In this document: piece by piece, positions 14,094 through 22,602 of the stretch
Position numbering within the stretch: position 1 is the first letter of the stretch
How the letters are laid out: each line of letters opens with the position of its first letter
Source: Armatimonadota bacterium
GTDB taxonomy: Bacteria; Armatimonadota; Fimbriimonadia; Fimbriimonadales; Fimbriimonadaceae
DNA: 64,000 nt
Direction: 5' to 3'
NCBI GenBank assembly: GCA_018268355.1
Contig: JAFDWR010000001.1
Coordinates: 769,858 to 833,857, forward strand
The notes under the pieces: model-generated
What the model was told of the DNA's origin: nothing
The model's database searches: none
What the model saw: the letters and a program-made list of their open reading frames with translations, nothing else
Made by a program: the position numbers and the translations under genes

Positions 14094-14245
14094 GCCATTT
14101 TCCCCGCCCGGCCCGTGCCTCGCCCTCGTCGCCTTTGGCTCCTCCGCCCTCGGGCGGGGGGAATGGCCCCAAAGCACGATTTGCCGCAATGACCATCACG
14201 GGGACAGCAGCGGGCCGGGCGGGGGGGAATCTCGCCAACCACCCC
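14094..14245. repeat. Dispersed intergenic repeat, copy A
   Basis: Shares two modules with copy B (21797-21943). Module 1 (about 14162-14245) matches copy B on the opposite strand, including GGTCAT, CGGCAAA and CGTGCTTTGGGGC blocks. Module 2 (about 14102-14161) matches in the same strand (CCTCGTCGCC, GGCTCCTCCGCCCTCGGGCG) and is bounded by complementary ends CCCCGCCCG and CGGGCGGGG. The relative orientation of the two modules therefore differs between copies. Confidence 0.75.
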
Positions 14246-15636: not shown

Positions 15637-16665
15637 TCAGCGTTGGAAGAGCCGTTCGACGAGCCAGTAGCTGCCCGCCATGCCGATCATGATCGAAGCG
15701 GTAGTGAGGGTCCAGCGCCGTGCCCTTGGCCAAAAGCGAGTAATCAAGGCGACCAGCCCGCCCGCCAATGCAAGGATCAACAGTTGACCCATCTCGATCC
15801 CAAGATTGAACATCAGAACCGGGACAAAGAGGTCGAACCCGCTCAGCCCCACCGCGCTCATGCCGCCCGCAAAGCCGAATCCGTGAATGAGGCCAAAACC
15901 GAACGCAAGACCGAACGCCATCGGGCTCCGATCGGTCGCTTCTGGCTTTGACTGCCGGCGATAGGCCTCCAGCGCGAGCAAGACGATGCTCAGCGCAATG
16001 AGCGGCTCGATAACCCTCATCCAAGGTCGCACCCAGCCGAATTGAACGAGCATCAAGGTGATCGTGTGGGCAATGCTGAACCCAGTGACAAGCTCGAAGA
16101 GCTTCTTGAATCGACCGCCGATGATGACCAGACCGCAAATGAAGAGGATGTGATCGGGGCCGCTGAGGATGTGCTCAATTCCCTCGGTGATGAAGTTCGA
16201 AGCCCCCGCTTTCGCTTGGCTCCCGGTTCCCGCGCCGATGAGGCGCTCTTCGGTCAATTCGTTGCCTACCCGGCGGGTCAACAGCGTCCGCGAGGCCTCA
16301 TCTTCGGGATAGAACTTCTTCTTTACGTCGAGGACCCCGATCGGAAGCTTCGTCGTCCCCGTCCAGGTGAGCATGTCGGCACCCGAGTCGACGACGAGCT
16401 CACCCTTGTCAAAGGTGAACGGCCTCCCTTCTCCGAGGACCTCAAGGCGGCTGCGCACCGCAAGGTCAAGGTCCGCCGGGGTCGGTTTTGGGCCGAGTCG
16501 CGCACGCTCAACAAGGCGGCTGACCGGCGTCATCACGCGGATCGTCGTTCCCGAAGGCGTCTGCTGCAGCTCGATTCCGGTCAGGCCGATGTCATGGGCC
16601 AGCCCCAGCGCCGCCATCCAGAAGATGGCGAGCACAAAGGCAAGCCGAGACGCCAACCGGCTCAT
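15637..16665 (-). CDS. HupE/UreJ-like membrane protein
   Basis: 342 aa. A signal peptide (LAFVLAIFWMAALGLA) is followed by an extracytoplasmic domain of about 130 residues, then a membrane domain with the HupE/UreJ_2 signature ITEGIEHILSGPDHILFICGL and conserved GFSIAHTITL, GFGLIHGFGFAGGM. Family members are thought to move Ni or Co; the fused extracellular domain is the type seen in many environmental bacteria with no hydrogenase or urease. Last gene of the 15637-21533 operon, overlapping the upstream metallophosphatase by ATGA. Confidence 0.9.
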   Translation of the reverse strand: MSRLASRLAFVLAIFWMAALGLAHDIGLTGIELQQTPSGTTIRVMTPVSRLVERARLGPKPTPADLDLAVRSRLEVLGEGRPFTFDKGELVVDSGADMLTWTGTTKLPIGVLDVKKKFYPEDEASRTLLTRRVGNELTEERLIGAGTGSQAKAGASNFITEGIEHILSGPDHILFICGLVIIGGRFKKLFELVTGFSIAHTITLMLVQFGWVRPWMRVIEPLIALSIVLLALEAYRRQSKPEATDRSPMAFGLAFGFGLIHGFGFAGGMSAVGLSGFDLFVPVLMFNLGIEMGQLLILALAGGLVALITRFWPRARRWTLTTASIMIGMAGSYWLVERLFQR

Positions 16666-18002
16666 CGACCCTTGAGTTCGAATGAGTCGGCAATCGAGCC
16701 GTTGGCCGAGACGGGCAGAGACTTCACGTACTCCAACTTAGCACGTTCGGGTCCAACCGTCACCCGGATATGACCCGAACTACCGAGGAGCTTCCCGGAC
16801 TTGTAGCCGTAACCTTCTGCGCTGTTCGTGTTGCCTCGCGAGGCGCTTGGCTGGGGCACTTCGAGATACGTGATCCCGTCGCGTTCTTGGCGCACATACA
16901 GGTGGTCGTGACCGTGAAACAGGGCGGTGACCCCGTACTTAACCATCAGCTCGTGGATCGGCTCCGCCCAACCACTTCGCTGCTTGGAAAAGTCGACCTT
17001 GTTGCCCCATTCAAACTTGTCCGAGGCCTCCACGCCACCGCGCGCCTCGCGACCGAAGCCGCCGACCAGGTGGTGGATAAAGATGAACTTGTACTTCGAG
17101 TTCGACGTCTTCAGCACCTTCTCAAACCAGCGAAACTGAGTCTCGCCCAGGGTCCAATTCCAGCCGTCCTCGTCGCTGCGCGTTTTGGTGGTCGTCGCCA
17201 CAAACGGGTCAAGAACGATGAACGTCGCGTCGCCCCACTTCCAGGAGTAGTAAAGGCCCCGGCGGGGTGCTCCTGAATAGAAGTCGTCCGGACTGATGAC
17301 GGGAAAGTTGGCTTCGCGCTGCGCCTGCGACCATTCCGTGCTCGAGATGCCACCGCGGCCGCGCCATCCCACTTCGCCGTCGTGATTACCGAGGCAAAGG
17401 AAGACCGACATCGCTTGGCCGGGAATCGAGAACCAATACCGCTGGGCCTGATACTGCTTAAGCGCGTCCTCCGGCTTTGGATACTTGTCCACCATGAACG
17501 TGTCGCCGAGGTCCACGAGGAAGTCGGGCCGGTCCTTTACGATGTTCCGAAGGGTCCGCTCGTAAACCTGGGTGTCAGTGTTACCATCCAGGTGCGAGTC
17601 GGCTTGGAAGACAAAGGTGAACGGCTCGCTCGCCTTGCGTGCGGTCTGAAACTCGCCGCTCAGCTTTTCCTCGCCCATCTGGAGGTCGTACCGGTACCGT
17701 GCGCTGGCTTGAAGCTTGGTCAGCCGAACCGGCAGCGGCACCCCTTCTTTCAGGGTCACGGTTTGAGTCTTGGGCGGTTGTTTGTCCGCGCCGTAGGTGA
17801 GCGTGGCCGTGCCCGCCGTGCTCGCGAGCACCGAAAGGGTGATCGACGACGTCGTCGGCGCGCCTGCAATCACATTCAGCTTTGAGGCCGGATATTCGGT
17901 CCGAAAAACGGGCGGGGGTCCGCCGCGACCGCCTTGCTGGACGAAGGCTGCACCGATGCCAATGGCAATCGCCCCGCTAACGAGAAGGATGGGAAGTCTC
18001 AT
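16662..18002 (-). CDS. Exported metallophosphatase, purple-acid-phosphatase-like (copy B)
   Basis: 446 aa from ATG 18002, which overlaps the upstream stop and opens a signal anchor (MRLPILLVSGAIAIGIGAAF). The longer frame to 18122 is an out-of-operon extension. An N-terminal fibronectin-III-like domain (to about residue 120) precedes a calcineurin-like phosphoesterase core with all metal ligands: QADSH, LGDTF, LGNHDGE, FIHH and HGHDHLY. It probably hydrolyses phosphate esters outside the cytoplasm. It is a clear paralogue of the protein at 20052-21533; both share YERTL, KYKF and EWG blocks in the same order. Confidence 0.9.
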   Translation of the reverse strand: MRLPILLVSGAIAIGIGAAFVQQGGRGGPPPVFRTEYPASKLNVIAGAPTTSSITLSVLASTAGTATLTYGADKQPPKTQTVTLKEGVPLPVRLTKLQASARYRYDLQMGEEKLSGEFQTARKASEPFTFVFQADSHLDGNTDTQVYERTLRNIVKDRPDFLVDLGDTFMVDKYPKPEDALKQYQAQRYWFSIPGQAMSVFLCLGNHDGEVGWRGRGGISSTEWSQAQREANFPVISPDDFYSGAPRRGLYYSWKWGDATFIVLDPFVATTTKTRSDEDGWNWTLGETQFRWFEKVLKTSNSKYKFIFIHHLVGGFGREARGGVEASDKFEWGNKVDFSKQRSGWAEPIHELMVKYGVTALFHGHDHLYVRQERDGITYLEVPQPSASRGNTNSAEGYGYKSGKLLGSSGHIRVTVGPERAKLEYVKSLPVSANGSIADSFELKGR

Positions 18003-18682
18003 GAGTGGGGCGCTCCCGAAACGTCGAGTTCTGGCTTGGTCGTCCACCGCGGTTTCCAGTCTGGCCGTTCGATCTTCGTCCGGAAGATCACGGTGTTGTC
18101 GAGGTCGAGGTCCTTGGTCCAAATGAACTTGGCGCTGCCGAAGTCGGCCCGGTAGAACGACTCCTTCGGGTTCACGCGCTCGGTCGTGTACTCCGTCGCG
18201 TTCTCCCAGGTCGAGTCGTCGAAGTCCTTCGCGTACCAGTTGGCGGGCAAGGGCTGGCGGCTCACCTTGGGCGATTGGACGTCCCGGTTAAGCGGCCCCG
18301 TGAAGAACGACTTGGCCTTCCAATTCTCGGTGGTGACGGTCCCGTCGGCAAACTTCAGGATGAACCCGCCGTCGCCGATGTGATCGCCATATTCGAGCCC
18401 CGTTTTGGGGTCGGCATTGTCCTTCGCGAGTACGGCAATCGTCATTGGGTACTCGGGCAAGATGTCGAATGACATCACGTTGTGGGGCAAGAAGTCGATC
18501 GAGTCGACCGCAACCGGCTTGCCGTTGATGTACAGCATGAACCAGTTGTCCGCATAGACATTCGCCTGGATCGTGTCGCCCGCGGTCGGCTTGACCACAC
18601 CGCGCTGGCTCAGCGTCCAAACCCCGGCCGAGGTTGCCAATGCCCCTACGAGGAGGCCGCAGATGAACTTGGCGTCTGCCAT
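17999..18682 (-). CDS. Membrane-anchored protein of unknown family in the YHYH operon
   Basis: 227 aa from ATG 18682 (ATGA overlap with the upstream stop; a longer frame exists but is a shadow of the upstream gene). One N-terminal membrane segment (FICGLLVGALATSAGVWTL) anchors a beta-rich domain with ANVYADNWFMLYINGKPV and later FDDSTWENATEYTTE, which resemble galactose-binding-like sandwich segments. The lack of cysteines and the aromatic-rich strands suit an extracytoplasmic role. No enzyme motif seen. Its fixed place between the YHYH protein and the second phosphatase suggests a shared substrate or complex. Confidence 0.75.
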   Translation of the reverse strand: MADAKFICGLLVGALATSAGVWTLSQRGVVKPTAGDTIQANVYADNWFMLYINGKPVAVDSIDFLPHNVMSFDILPEYPMTIAVLAKDNADPKTGLEYGDHIGDGGFILKFADGTVTTENWKAKSFFTGPLNRDVQSPKVSRQPLPANWYAKDFDDSTWENATEYTTERVNPKESFYRADFGSAKFIWTKDLDLDNTVIFRTKIERPDWKPRWTTKPELDVSGAPHS

Positions 18683-20055
18683 CAGCCCTCCAACTCGCTG
18701 CCGCTGAGCTTGCCGTCGCCGTTCTTGTCCTGCTTGCGGAACATGCGCATCATCGAGTCGGTGATCTCCTTCTCGGTGAGCTTGCCGTCGGAATTCATGT
18801 CCAACTCTTTGGCGTGAACCTTGATGAATCCGCCGATCGCCAGCCGCACGGTGGGTAGCTTGGGCAGCTTTTCCATGTCGATGAACTCCGCGCCTTGCGA
18901 GTATTGCTTGAACGATTCCTTGCACTGGTCGATGACCTCTTGAGTCGAGACCTCGCCGTCCTTGTTCGTGTCGAGCTCCTTGGCATGGTCGACAAACCAC
19001 GGCTTCCTTGGTCCGGGAGGCGGTCCCAGTTGGCCGCCACCGCCGCCAGGCCCACCCTTATCGGGGCCACCTTGTCCGGGGCCGCCGCCCTGGTCAGGGC
19101 CCTTCCGTCCGCCGTTTCCGCCCCCGCGGCCCGGGCGGCCACGATAGGTTTCGGTGCGCACGGCGCCATTGCGATCCACGTAGTCGAACTTGACCGACCC
19201 ATCGGCGAGGATCTCGTAATTGACCTTCTCGGTCGCCCCGTCGATGGTGTAGGTCAGCGAATAGGACTTGAGGGGATTCACCGTTTTGAAGTCAGTGATC
19301 TTTGCCCCGCGCAGCGGCGGCATCGCCGGGCGCGGACTCTGGGCGCGCGGCTGGGGATCGACTTGCCCATCGCGGTCAGTCACCTCGCCGTGGAAGCCGC
19401 CATTGATGTAGGGGTAGTTCTTGGTCGCGTGGTAGTGATAGCCAATGCTCGTGGTGTGGCCGTTGAACTGATCGAGGTCCTTCGGGGTCTTGCCATCGGG
19501 CTCGGTGTAGCCATAGATCGGGTAGCCATCGAGCGCGTAGGCGACGGGAACCTTGGTGCCGATCTTCTCCTGGAGGATCACCGGTGCGATGTGATAGTGG
19601 TAGTCGTCGCTCCGGCCGCAGTGACCGCCGTACTTGTCGAGCTCACCGGCGAGAAATGTATCGGTTCGACCGTCATTCTTGATCGGATTGAAGATCGGAA
19701 CACCGTTCGCGGCAATCGCAATCGCGCCCCGGAAGAAGTGGTCTTTCGCGCTCAGAGGGTTCTTCGCGGGCACCGGATTGAGCGGAAACTGCCACGCGTT
19801 CGCGCCCGTGTACTTTTGGGGCAGCGGGACTTGCTGTTGCCAAGCCGTGATGCCGATCATCATCGGATGGTCGGGGATGCCGTTCGATTCGACGTAGAAA
19901 TTGGTCTCGTCCGAGCGCGTTTTCACCGTGTCGGAGTACTTCTCAAACGTCTTTTGGATCTCGTTGGCACGCTGCTTCGATTGGAGCGCATGGTAGCCGC
20001 CCGCAACGCCAGAAACGGCGAAGAGGGCGAGGATGAGAATGGGTTGTCCTTTCAT
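18682..20055 (-). CDS. YHYH-domain protein with C-terminal EF-hands
   Basis: 457 aa. A signal-like segment at the start (ILILALFAVSGVAGGYHAL) is followed by a YHYH domain that contains the signature twice (DDYHYHIAP and SIGYHYHAT) along with GHCG and DGYPIYGY, typical of this family of unknown function. A Gly/Pro-rich linker around residues 300-345 leads to at least three canonical calcium loops: DTNKDGEVSTQE, DMNSDGKLTEKE and DKNGDGKLSGSE. Probably a secreted, Ca-binding protein. Overlaps both neighbours by ATGA. Confidence 0.9.
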   Translation of the reverse strand: MKGQPILILALFAVSGVAGGYHALQSKQRANEIQKTFEKYSDTVKTRSDETNFYVESNGIPDHPMMIGITAWQQQVPLPQKYTGANAWQFPLNPVPAKNPLSAKDHFFRGAIAIAANGVPIFNPIKNDGRTDTFLAGELDKYGGHCGRSDDYHYHIAPVILQEKIGTKVPVAYALDGYPIYGYTEPDGKTPKDLDQFNGHTTSIGYHYHATKNYPYINGGFHGEVTDRDGQVDPQPRAQSPRPAMPPLRGAKITDFKTVNPLKSYSLTYTIDGATEKVNYEILADGSVKFDYVDRNGAVRTETYRGRPGRGGGNGGRKGPDQGGGPGQGGPDKGGPGGGGGQLGPPPGPRKPWFVDHAKELDTNKDGEVSTQEVIDQCKESFKQYSQGAEFIDMEKLPKLPTVRLAIGGFIKVHAKELDMNSDGKLTEKEITDSMMRMFRKQDKNGDGKLSGSELEG

Positions 20056-21533
20056 GACTTGGCTCCTTTCGGTTTGACTTCGTAGCTGTAGGCGATTTCG
20101 CCATGCTCGTGACCGTCGACTTCCGCGCTCGGCTCATAGGCGCGGACGTATTCAATCTTTGCGCGGTCGGGAGCGATGCTCACCTTCACCAGGCCCGCGC
20201 CGGGGACCTTGTTACCCGTGCGATAGGCGTCGCCGTTGATGAGGCTGTTCGTCGGGTCGGCGGGACATGGGCAGCTCTGGTAGATCACGCCGTCAAGCTC
20301 TTGCTTGCAGAAGATGTGGTCGTGGCCTTGGAAGAAGATGCTCACGCCCGACTTCACAAAGAGTTGGTGGATGGGAAGGTCCCAGCCTGGTCGCTGCCGC
20401 TTGAACTCATCATCTCCGCCGCGGCCCTTGCCGCCCCATTCGAAGATTCCGGCGTTCTCAACGCCGCCGCGTCCGGTTCCGTTCACGTGGTGGGCAAAGA
20501 CAAACTTGTACTTCGCTTTACTCTCCATCAGCGTCTTGGTCAGCCAGCGATACTGGGCGTCGCCGAGCGTGATGTTCCACATGTTGCGTCCCGCCTTGCC
20601 ACCGCCTTCCTGCTTCGGACCCTTGCCCGCCGCGTTGTCGACCGGTCCATTCGAATGCCAATAGGGGTCGATGGTGACAAAGAGCGCATCGCCCCAGGTC
20701 CAAGCGAAGTAGTTGCGCAAGAGGCCGATGTGTTCAACTTTCTCGCTGTTTCCGGTGTAAAAGGTGTCGGGCGCGGGCTGGAGGTAGTTCCGGTTGCGCG
20801 CGTTTTGCACCATCACGCCGAGGCTGTTCGGGGTGCCGTCGAGGTTGGCCTTTGCGGCCTGTTCGTGGTTGCCATTGACCAGGAAAAGCGGCGAGGAGTG
20901 AGCGACGAGGCCCAGGTAAGGCACCTGCTTCGCGTACACCCCATCGACGGTTTGCAGGGTGCGCTCGCGAAGGGTGTCCACGCTGAAGTCATCGCCGAGG
21001 CAGATGAAGAAGTCCGGCTTCAGGGTTGCCGCGGTAAGGAGGGTCCGCTCATAGAGGCTCGGGACGTTCATCTTCGGGTTGCGCTCGGGGTGGGAGTCGC
21101 CTTGGACGATGAACGTGAACGGCTTGCCGGCCGAGCGTTGGGTTTGGAAGTGGTAGGTCGGGCTGACGGTTTCGCCGTCCGACTTGCGTAGACTTACCTG
21201 GTAAGAATACGAGGTGTCGGGCTTCAGGCCCTCAAGGATGAAGTGTTTGGGTTCACTCGCTTTGACCGTGATTGGCTCGGACTGGCTGCTCATCGCCTTG
21301 CCCTCGGGCCCAAACTTGAGGGTGGCGGTGGCGTCGCTCTTCAGGTGGAACGTGAAGCCCATCGAGGTCCGCTCGGGAGTGCCGAGAAGGACGCGGCCTT
21401 CGTTCCAACCGACGCTGGGCGGTGGGAATGGCCTTCCCTGCCCTCCGCCGCCGCCGCGACCTTGGAGAGTGCCAAGCGTGGCAAGACCGACCAGGCTCGT
21501 TGCGCCCAGGACCGAGAGGAAAGCAAGCTTCAT
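20052..21533 (-). CDS. Exported metallophosphatase, purple-acid-phosphatase-like (copy A)
   Basis: 493 aa; first gene of the five-gene operon. The signal peptide (FLSVLGATSLVGLATLG) is followed by a Gly-rich stretch, a fibronectin-III-like domain (VGWNEGRVLLGTPE to about residue 130) and the calcineurin-like core with QGDSHPE, LGDDFSVD, NGNHEQ, AHHVNG and QGHDHIF. Residues that bind the dinuclear metal centre appear complete. Paralogous to the protein encoded at 16662-18002. Start ATG 21533 has no strong ribosome-binding site; the upstream 400 bp hold a repeat and a terminator-like hairpin of the opposite strand. Confidence 0.92.
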   Translation of the reverse strand: MKLAFLSVLGATSLVGLATLGTLQGRGGGGGQGRPFPPPSVGWNEGRVLLGTPERTSMGFTFHLKSDATATLKFGPEGKAMSSQSEPITVKASEPKHFILEGLKPDTSYSYQVSLRKSDGETVSPTYHFQTQRSAGKPFTFIVQGDSHPERNPKMNVPSLYERTLLTAATLKPDFFICLGDDFSVDTLRERTLQTVDGVYAKQVPYLGLVAHSSPLFLVNGNHEQAAKANLDGTPNSLGVMVQNARNRNYLQPAPDTFYTGNSEKVEHIGLLRNYFAWTWGDALFVTIDPYWHSNGPVDNAAGKGPKQEGGGKAGRNMWNITLGDAQYRWLTKTLMESKAKYKFVFAHHVNGTGRGGVENAGIFEWGGKGRGGDDEFKRQRPGWDLPIHQLFVKSGVSIFFQGHDHIFCKQELDGVIYQSCPCPADPTNSLINGDAYRTGNKVPGAGLVKVSIAPDRAKIEYVRAYEPSAEVDGHEHGEIAYSYEVKPKGAKS

Positions 21534-21796: not shown

Positions 21797-21943
21797 GGTG
21801 GTGGGTTCGGGGATTCTTTGCCCCAGCCCGGCCTGTCCCCGAAATGGTCATGGCGGCAAAACGTGCTTTGGGGCAGTGAAGCCCCCGCCCGGCCCGGTGC
21901 CATGCCCTCGTCGCCTGCGGCTCCTCCGCCCTCGGGCGGGGGG
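21797..21943. repeat. Dispersed intergenic repeat, copy B
   Basis: Contains ATGGTCATGGCGGCAAAACG and CGTGCTTTGGGGC (module 1, about 21797-21876, same modules as copy A but on the opposite strand) and the GC-rich module 2 (about 21882-21943) ending CTCGGGCGGGGGG, in the same strand as copy A. It ends 3 bp before the stop of the DUF1275 gene. Confidence 0.75.
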
Positions 21944-21945
21944 AC

Positions 21946-22602
21946 CTACGTCGCCGGCGACACCGAAGCGGGCCGCAAGGTCCGCGAATAAGCCCAAAGC
22001 GCGGCCGCGCCCGCGACTGCCGGCCAAAGCGTCAGCGCCCGAAGCTGCTCGTGGCCGAGCGCCCCGAGGATCGCCCCCACAACCAGCCCTAGCCAATGGA
22101 TCGCATAGGGCGTCCAGCTCATCTTCGAGCCACCGAAGAACGACAACGCGACCTGCTGGCCAAGCTTCACTAGCGTGCCCGTCATGTAGGTCAAGCCGAT
22201 CGTCACCTCGCCATCACGCTGGAAAACCGCATTCTCGGCCCCCATCGCGACAACCAACAAGGCCGTGCTGAGCGAAGGAACCCCGAACGTGTGCAAAACC
22301 GCCGCGAGCAAGAGCGTCCCGAGGACAAAGAGGAGGACCGCCGGCTTGTGACGATGGCTGTACCACCGTGCCACCACCGAACCGAGCACCACGCCGAGGA
22401 CAAACAGGCCGATCAAGCCAAGGATGAGGCCCATCGCCACCCAGCGGCCTTCCGCCGCGGCAATGCTCAGCCTCGTCGAGTTGCCGCTCATGAACGAGAC
22501 AAACAGTCCTCCCGTGCCGAGGAACCCGCTAGCGTCCACATAGCCCGCCAAACAAGAGAGGCCAACCGCAAGTCGAATCGCTCGACGGTCGTAGCTGGTC
22601 AC
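21946..22602 (-). CDS. DUF1275 (YoaK-like) membrane protein
   Basis: 218 aa from GTG 22602 (GGAAG box 9 nt upstream); an ATG at 22647 would give 233 aa but puts the start in the divergent promoter region. Six or seven membrane segments. Motifs of the family are present: LAGYVDASGFL near the start, FVSFMSGNSTRL and GAENAVFQRDGEVTIGLTYMTG. Function of DUF1275 is unknown; a transport role is assumed in the literature. Divergent from the SRPBCC/ArsR pair. Confidence 0.9.
   Translation of the reverse strand: MTSYDRRAIRLAVGLSCLAGYVDASGFLGTGGLFVSFMSGNSTRLSIAAAEGRWVAMGLILGLIGLFVLGVVLGSVVARWYSHRHKPAVLLFVLGTLLLAAVLHTFGVPSLSTALLVVAMGAENAVFQRDGEVTIGLTYMTGTLVKLGQQVALSFFGGSKMSWTPYAIHWLGLVVGAILGALGHEQLRALTLWPAVAGAAALWAYSRTLRPASVSPAT

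Follow-up and report, generated by a model that had tools for sequence, protein, structure and literature searches.

A recurrent gene association of a YHYH protein, two metallophosphoesterases, a predicted CBM67-like protein and a HupE/UreJ-2 permease in an Armatimonadota genome

Five tightly spaced genes on the minus strand, spanning positions 21533 to 15637, were analysed in a window of 64,000 nucleotides from contig JAFDWR010000001.1 of an Armatimonadota bacterium (genome 2.7 Mb, 97.7% complete); the family of this genome, Fimbriimonadaceae, is that of the named members in the metallophosphatase tree described below. The gene order 5' to 3' is MP1, YHYH protein, a protein of 227 residues, MP2 and HupE/UreJ-2. 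MP1 (20052..21533; 493 residues) is a predicted secreted calcineurin-like metallophosphoesterase with an N-terminal Fn3/Ig domain of the purple acid phosphatase (PAP) type. The YHYH protein (18682..20055; 457 residues) consists of the YHYH domain proper at residues 37-250 (19306..19947) and a C-terminal EF-hand tail at about residues 360-457 (18685..18978). It is followed by the 227-residue protein (17999..18682), which is CBM67-like, of galactose-binding type and predicted to be anchored at its N-terminus, and by MP2 (16662..18002; 446 residues), a second predicted secreted metallophosphoesterase that probably starts at the ATG at 18002 rather than at the upstream TTG of the mechanically called open reading frame (ORF). 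The last gene encodes an anglerase-type HupE/UreJ-2 metal permease of 342 residues with an extracytoplasmic N-terminal domain (15637..16665). A first-pass annotation had described this five-gene operon with ATGA overlaps at all four junctions. All five genes are present where it placed them, and successive genes overlap by 4, 1, 4 and 4 bp; three junctions (MP1/YHYH, 227-residue protein/MP2 and MP2/HupE) are indeed 4-bp ATGA overlaps, and that between the YHYH gene and the 227-residue gene is TGATG, a 1-bp overlap. A promoter and terminator scan gave no promoter-like site and a count of terminator-like sites at chance level, so the operon status rests on the overlaps and on conservation.

The association of these genes is beyond chance. 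In a sample of 291 genomes of the phylum, 68 matches to YHYH were compared with 55 to PF13795 (HupE/UreJ-2); a PF13795 gene lies no more than 6 kb away from 24 of the 68 YHYH genes, where about 0.2 would be expected. The 227-residue gene was found in 12 genomes of this sample, all 12 of which are among the 18 with an operon-type YHYH gene (hypergeometric p 3e-17, with no correction for relatedness); it lies no more than 4 kb from the YHYH gene in 8 genomes and elsewhere in the same genome in 4. MP2-like genes are present in 29 genomes, 17 of them with operon-type YHYH. The order MP1-YHYH-(227)-MP2-HupE is conserved in close relatives: they keep MP1-YHYH-MP2, and several have the HupE and 227-residue genes after MP2. 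A wider scan covered about 85,000 species genomes, and the best 80 loci of at least 447 relatives were taken; these belong to Planctomycetota, Verrucomicrobiota, Acidobacteriota and Armatimonadota, apart from a few bins that carry other labels. Among these best 80 loci, tblastn of the flanks detected MP2-type partners at at least 33, MP1-type at at least 11, 227-residue-type at at least 32, PEBP at at least 38 and HupE at at least 5, all of them lower bounds because many contigs are short. Looser versions of the module occur in Planctomycetota, Verrucomicrobiota and Acidobacteriota. The neighbours recur in four phyla, contrary to the finding that would have refuted the first-pass annotation, namely their consistent absence beside YHYH genes elsewhere. 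Its view of the genes as functionally linked and apparently extracytoplasmic, with one part concerned with phosphatase activity and another with divalent metals, is supported.

The YHYH protein scores 51.5 bits with PF14240 (cut-off 25) and matches EF-hand_1 in three stretches; the limits of its YHYH domain are drawn from alignments and an AlphaFold2 (AF2) model (pLDDT 92.8), and those of the tail from Pfam EF-hand matches and alignments. It represents a divergent subfamily which matches about the first 110 of the 193 profile positions, and which differs from the rest of PF14240 in a conserved second YHYH motif, a GFHG motif and a C-terminal beta-meander. The motifs GGH, DDYHYH, NGH, YHYH and GFHG are invariant in alignments of the domain from close relatives. 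A fold search with the model matched phage YHYH models (E 5e-8 and 3e-4, the second so named), and a search of the PDB gave no clear relative of the core, being dominated by weak matches to the C-terminal beta-meander (residues 226-285; best Z 6.6). The protein is best read as a putative histidine/aspartate metalloprotein. A lanmodulin or lanthanide reading of the EF-hands was rejected, as the NCBIfam equivalog gave 21.8 against 135 bits and the EF-hand loops do not have the typical proline; the match to the lanmodulin model appears to be generic EF-hand similarity.

In relatives the EF-hand tail is swapped for a PEBP domain, or is followed by a metallophosphatase or a sulfatase. One frame of 961 residues (L084) contains YHYH, EF-hands and a metallophosphatase, and one of 1064 residues (L085:3415-6609) contains YHYH, an EF-hand and a sulfatase, both being single cases from metagenome-assembled genomes for which assembly error is possible; YHYH-PEBP fusions are frequent in other lineages. 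These fusions constitute strong evidence of joint action. Of 92 operon-type YHYH proteins, 33 have a predicted mature start resembling HxGHxH, none of these 33 being from the family of the window's genome; such a start was also found in 28 of 2520 other ORFs (about 1%), some of which are themselves YHYH proteins.

Further YHYH genes were observed in other settings. The window's genome carries a second, different YHYH gene (G000:C4:577519-577833, locus L036), with no other operon genes within about 10 kb. Five Verrucomicrobia loci (L095, L089, L093, L099 and L152) have an extra YHYH-type gene just upstream of the operon-type one, and that of L095 is of the canonical type. In a plasmid collection, YHYH lies beside PEBP-family genes on two Rhodobacterales plasmids (L154 and L155), matching the YHYH-PEBP fusions seen elsewhere, and beside HupE at L157; these loci support the association, although no phosphatase link was found at them.

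MP1 and MP2 share 34% identity over 471 columns. Both pass the Metallophos (PF00149) cut-off, MP2 with 44.1 bits, and the cut-off for the PAP N-terminal domain (PF16656) is passed by MP1 only. All eight calcineurin-like metal-ligand positions (DxH, GD, GNH, H and GHxH) are present in both proteins, a likeness to purple acid phosphatase, PhoD and calcineurin-like enzymes, and the ligands are intact, by alignment columns, in 53 of 55 usable homologues. The two had been annotated as paralogous purple-acid-phosphatase-like enzymes; true purple acid phosphatase identity is not supported, as the GDxxY tyrosine is absent (GDDFS and GDTFM) and motif I is DSH, of the form DxH instead of DxG. Because this tyrosine is absent, they are better named generic binuclear metallophosphoesterases. 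No PDB chain was matched by MP2 in a phmmer search at E 0.1. In the tree, MP1 and MP2 are separated by one branch with support of 99/99 and each side spans several phyla, so the pair is old and not the product of a recent duplication; the placement of L147 in this tree is a trimming artefact.

At two loci the MP2 homologue beside MP1 has lost several ligands (L082:14254-15678 and L087:14181-15671; GD to GN, GNH to GVH, GHDH to AHDN), and these degenerate copies are probably dead partner enzymes. In some genomes that have no YHYH gene, another gene stands beside or between the metallophosphatase genes (L177:10299-11564, L181:4498-5844 and L184:5007-5633); the two tested, those of L177 and L181, gave a weak, sub-threshold C-terminal match to LTXXQ or Metal_resist.

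Two predicted secreted metallophosphoesterases with intact ligands would also suit classical phosphate scavenging, in which secreted phosphatases are induced at low phosphate and the metal-related parts are incidental. In 9 loci, genes for OmpR-type regulators or two-component systems are found at a distance of 89-221 bp from the cluster, and PhoB/PhoR models do match these adjacent regulators, though they score below heavy-metal models, which are the best NCBIfam models (below cut-off) for the tested regulator and most of the kinases. In 15 loci, mostly planctomycete, an ECF (extracytoplasmic function) sigma factor gene is found at about 1 kb, separated from the cluster by an anti-sigma-like gene, which speaks against this explanation. 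Furthermore, the recurrent neighbour clusters included no conspicuous phosphate transporter or Pho gene, and the strongest recurrent partners are metal-binding. Phosphate scavenging is considered quite improbable, and phosphate-starvation control is not supported; the adjacent regulators of relatives resemble heavy-metal two-component systems or ECF sigma/anti-sigma pairs.

The 227-residue protein, previously listed as having no known role, has no Pfam or NCBIfam match, but its AF2 model (pLDDT 83.6) has a carbohydrate-binding-type fold. The closest structures are 3w5n, the CBM67-bearing rhamnosidase SaRha78A (Z 10.3 and rmsd 3.1 over 119 residues), and the Pleurotus ostreatus lectin 6kc2 (Z 9.4), all remaining rows having Z of 4.5 or less; a profile match to 2okx is weak (E 0.0028). 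The likeness to the CBM67/GH78 rhamnosidase domain and to the lectin is thus one of fold, with Z of 9-10 over about 120 residues, whereas sequence similarity is weak and the protein differs from the rhamnosidase in being stand-alone and anchored, with no catalytic domain. The invariant Asp45-Asn46 pair falls, going by the offset between the aligned ranges, close to positions 179-180 of 3w5n, which presumably have a ligand role. The model suggests a galactose-binding-type jelly-roll, and glycan binding is predicted. CBM67 is described as calcium-dependent (PMC4690510).

These folds bring in a polysaccharide-processing explanation, in which the CBM67-like lectin, the phosphatases and the sulfatases of relatives would strip phosphate and sulfate from a polysaccharide that is acidic and may contain rhamnose, and YHYH would cleave or bind the same glycan as has been proposed for YHYH of phage tails. 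A literature search on YHYH returned as relevant items only phage papers and an abundance mention; among them, a review of jumbo phages gives YHYH a predicted Zn site, made up of three histidines and one aspartate, and a predicted hydrolase role (PMC7824862), and phage YHYH has been proposed as a host-recognition domain (PMC7029224). Both proposals fit this explanation, as do the structural match of the YHYH model to phage proteins, the YHYH-sulfatase fusion of L085 and a sulfatase-MP2 pair in L183. It leaves the anglerase-HupE protein unexplained, however, and no glycoside hydrolase or polysaccharide lyase was prominent among the recurrent neighbour clusters, and as an account of the whole operon it is held to be improbable.

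The HupE protein scores 139.5 bits with PF13795 (cut-off 24.5) over residues 158-308. Its N-terminus is signal-like, MSRLASRLAFVLAIFWMAALGLA, followed by HDIGL, and from the AxA-type end (ALA|HD) cleavage is predicted to make His24 (codon at 16594..16596) residue 1 of the mature protein, a candidate mono-histidine brace. This histidine is invariant in 20 of 20 aligned homologues. The extra extracytoplasmic domain noted in the first-pass annotation fits the description of anglerase (Ang) domains, which were found in 2025 on HupE/UreJ-2 permeases by the histidine after the signal peptide (PMC12537917): a signal peptide, an invariant (here predicted) mature His1, an extracytoplasmic domain and a PF13795 permease are combined in one protein. 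The named neighbours most often found beside Ang-2 are metallophosphatases (PMC12537917), which are neighbours here too. The setting is different, as Ang-1 and Ang-2 were described for Pseudomonadota and Actinomycetota (PMC12537917), whereas the proteins here come from other phyla and stand with YHYH, which is absent from the text of that paper. A profile of the HupE homologues searched against solved chains gave no match to a solved Ang structure. As a mark specific to YHYH clusters the N-terminal histidine was rejected; control PF13795 proteins away from such clusters share it, and it therefore marks the PF13795 family and not the cluster.

Two Ang domains bind Cu2+ with dissociation constants of 62-74 nM, and Ang-1 also binds Ni2+ (PMC12537917). 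The metal had earlier been put down as calcium, or Ni/Co; because the extra domain of HupE fits the description of anglerase, whose His1 binds Cu2+ or Ni2+ (PMC12537917), Cu or Ni suits transport better than calcium. A role for calcium is probably confined to the EF-hands, with the CBM67-like protein as a further possibility.

The neighbours of Ang domains are often metal-dependent enzymes (PMC12537917), which favours a metal-supply operon: HupE and YHYH would acquire the active-site metal of MP1 and MP2 (and of the sulfatases in relatives) and insert it, with YHYH acting as a metallochaperone and not as an enzyme. It would account for the fusion or adjacency of YHYH to differing metallohydrolases, for its richness in histidine and for the HxGH N-termini of relatives. 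HupE/UreJ is, however, expected to import into the cytoplasm, yet MP1 and MP2 seem to be secreted; metallophosphoesterases elsewhere are not known to need a dedicated chaperone, and the PEBP fusions are left unexplained. We regard this explanation as unlikely, though not to be dismissed.

The reading we favour, at a probability of about 45%, is that of an extracytoplasmic module in which secreted phosphatases and a YHYH metalloprotein act at a glycan-held site and the anglerase permease imports a transition metal. It builds on the gene order, the overlaps, the conservation, the fusions and the conserved active-site residues and His24, all of which are directly seen. It is further favoured by the Cu2+ and Ni2+ binding of Ang domains and their metallophosphatase neighbours (PMC12537917), by the HxGH-type starts of YHYH proteins, by the nearby two-component genes, mostly closest to heavy-metal models, and by the sub-threshold LTXXQ/Metal_resist matches beside phosphatase genes where YHYH is absent. 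The substrates from which MP1 and MP2 would free phosphate are probably phosphorylated polymers or surface material, and the N-terminally anchored CBM67-like protein would keep the complex at the glycan. YHYH may hydrolyse the same material in a metal-dependent way or may donate metal to the phosphatases, and its EF-hands would lend calcium-dependent stability or docking. The anglerase-HupE/UreJ-2 protein would catch a transition metal, most likely Cu but possibly Ni or Co, via its mature N-terminal histidine, and the captured metal would then pass through the permease. Export, complex formation, the substrate, the identity of the metal, the way in which it is transported across the membrane (in or out) and what YHYH does are what we infer. 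In a more definite form, YHYH would be a metalloenzyme of novel fold which together with the two phosphatases frees both phosphate and metal from glycan-held, phosphorylated, metal-binding material, the anglerase permease importing the metal, in a system shared by several phyla; so stated, the proposal is a doubtful one. The explanations considered are not mutually exclusive.

Several observations weigh against the favoured reading. HupE was matched at only 5 of the 80 wider loci (in the available flanks) and metallophosphatase pairs are also found without YHYH, so that the parts can occur apart. A histidine at the N-terminus is a common feature of the PF13795 proteins examined and unspecific to YHYH clusters, and the window's own YHYH protein does not have the HxGH start. 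The sensor kinases score under curated cut-offs, and two kinases from the closest relatives had no hit at E 1e-40. Permeases of the HupE type classically import Ni or Co. The genome has no urease and no NiFe hydrogenase, and nickel is for this reason disfavoured, though weakly; this is no proof of Cu.

Each part of the operon falls in a known family and the link between HupE and metallophosphatases has already been noted for Ang-2. A literature search, which covered few subscription journals, turned up no earlier account of the module as a five-part set, of how widely it is spread, of the YHYH fusions or of the CBM67-like assignment. The orphan YHYH family gains a consistent bacterial gene context, connected with metallophosphatases and with the recently described anglerase importers of metal in several phyla of poorly cultured bacteria. 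The recurrence of the gene set across phyla suggests a system, not described before, in which metal capture is linked with extracytoplasmic phosphate-ester cleavage, and this context makes testable whether YHYH is a metal-dependent hydrolase or a metal carrier.

Outside the genes, two copies of an interspersed repeat flank the operon region, at 14102-14207 and 21833-21950 of the window; the repeat has inverted arms of 42 nt, which are 90% complementary, plus direct repeats.

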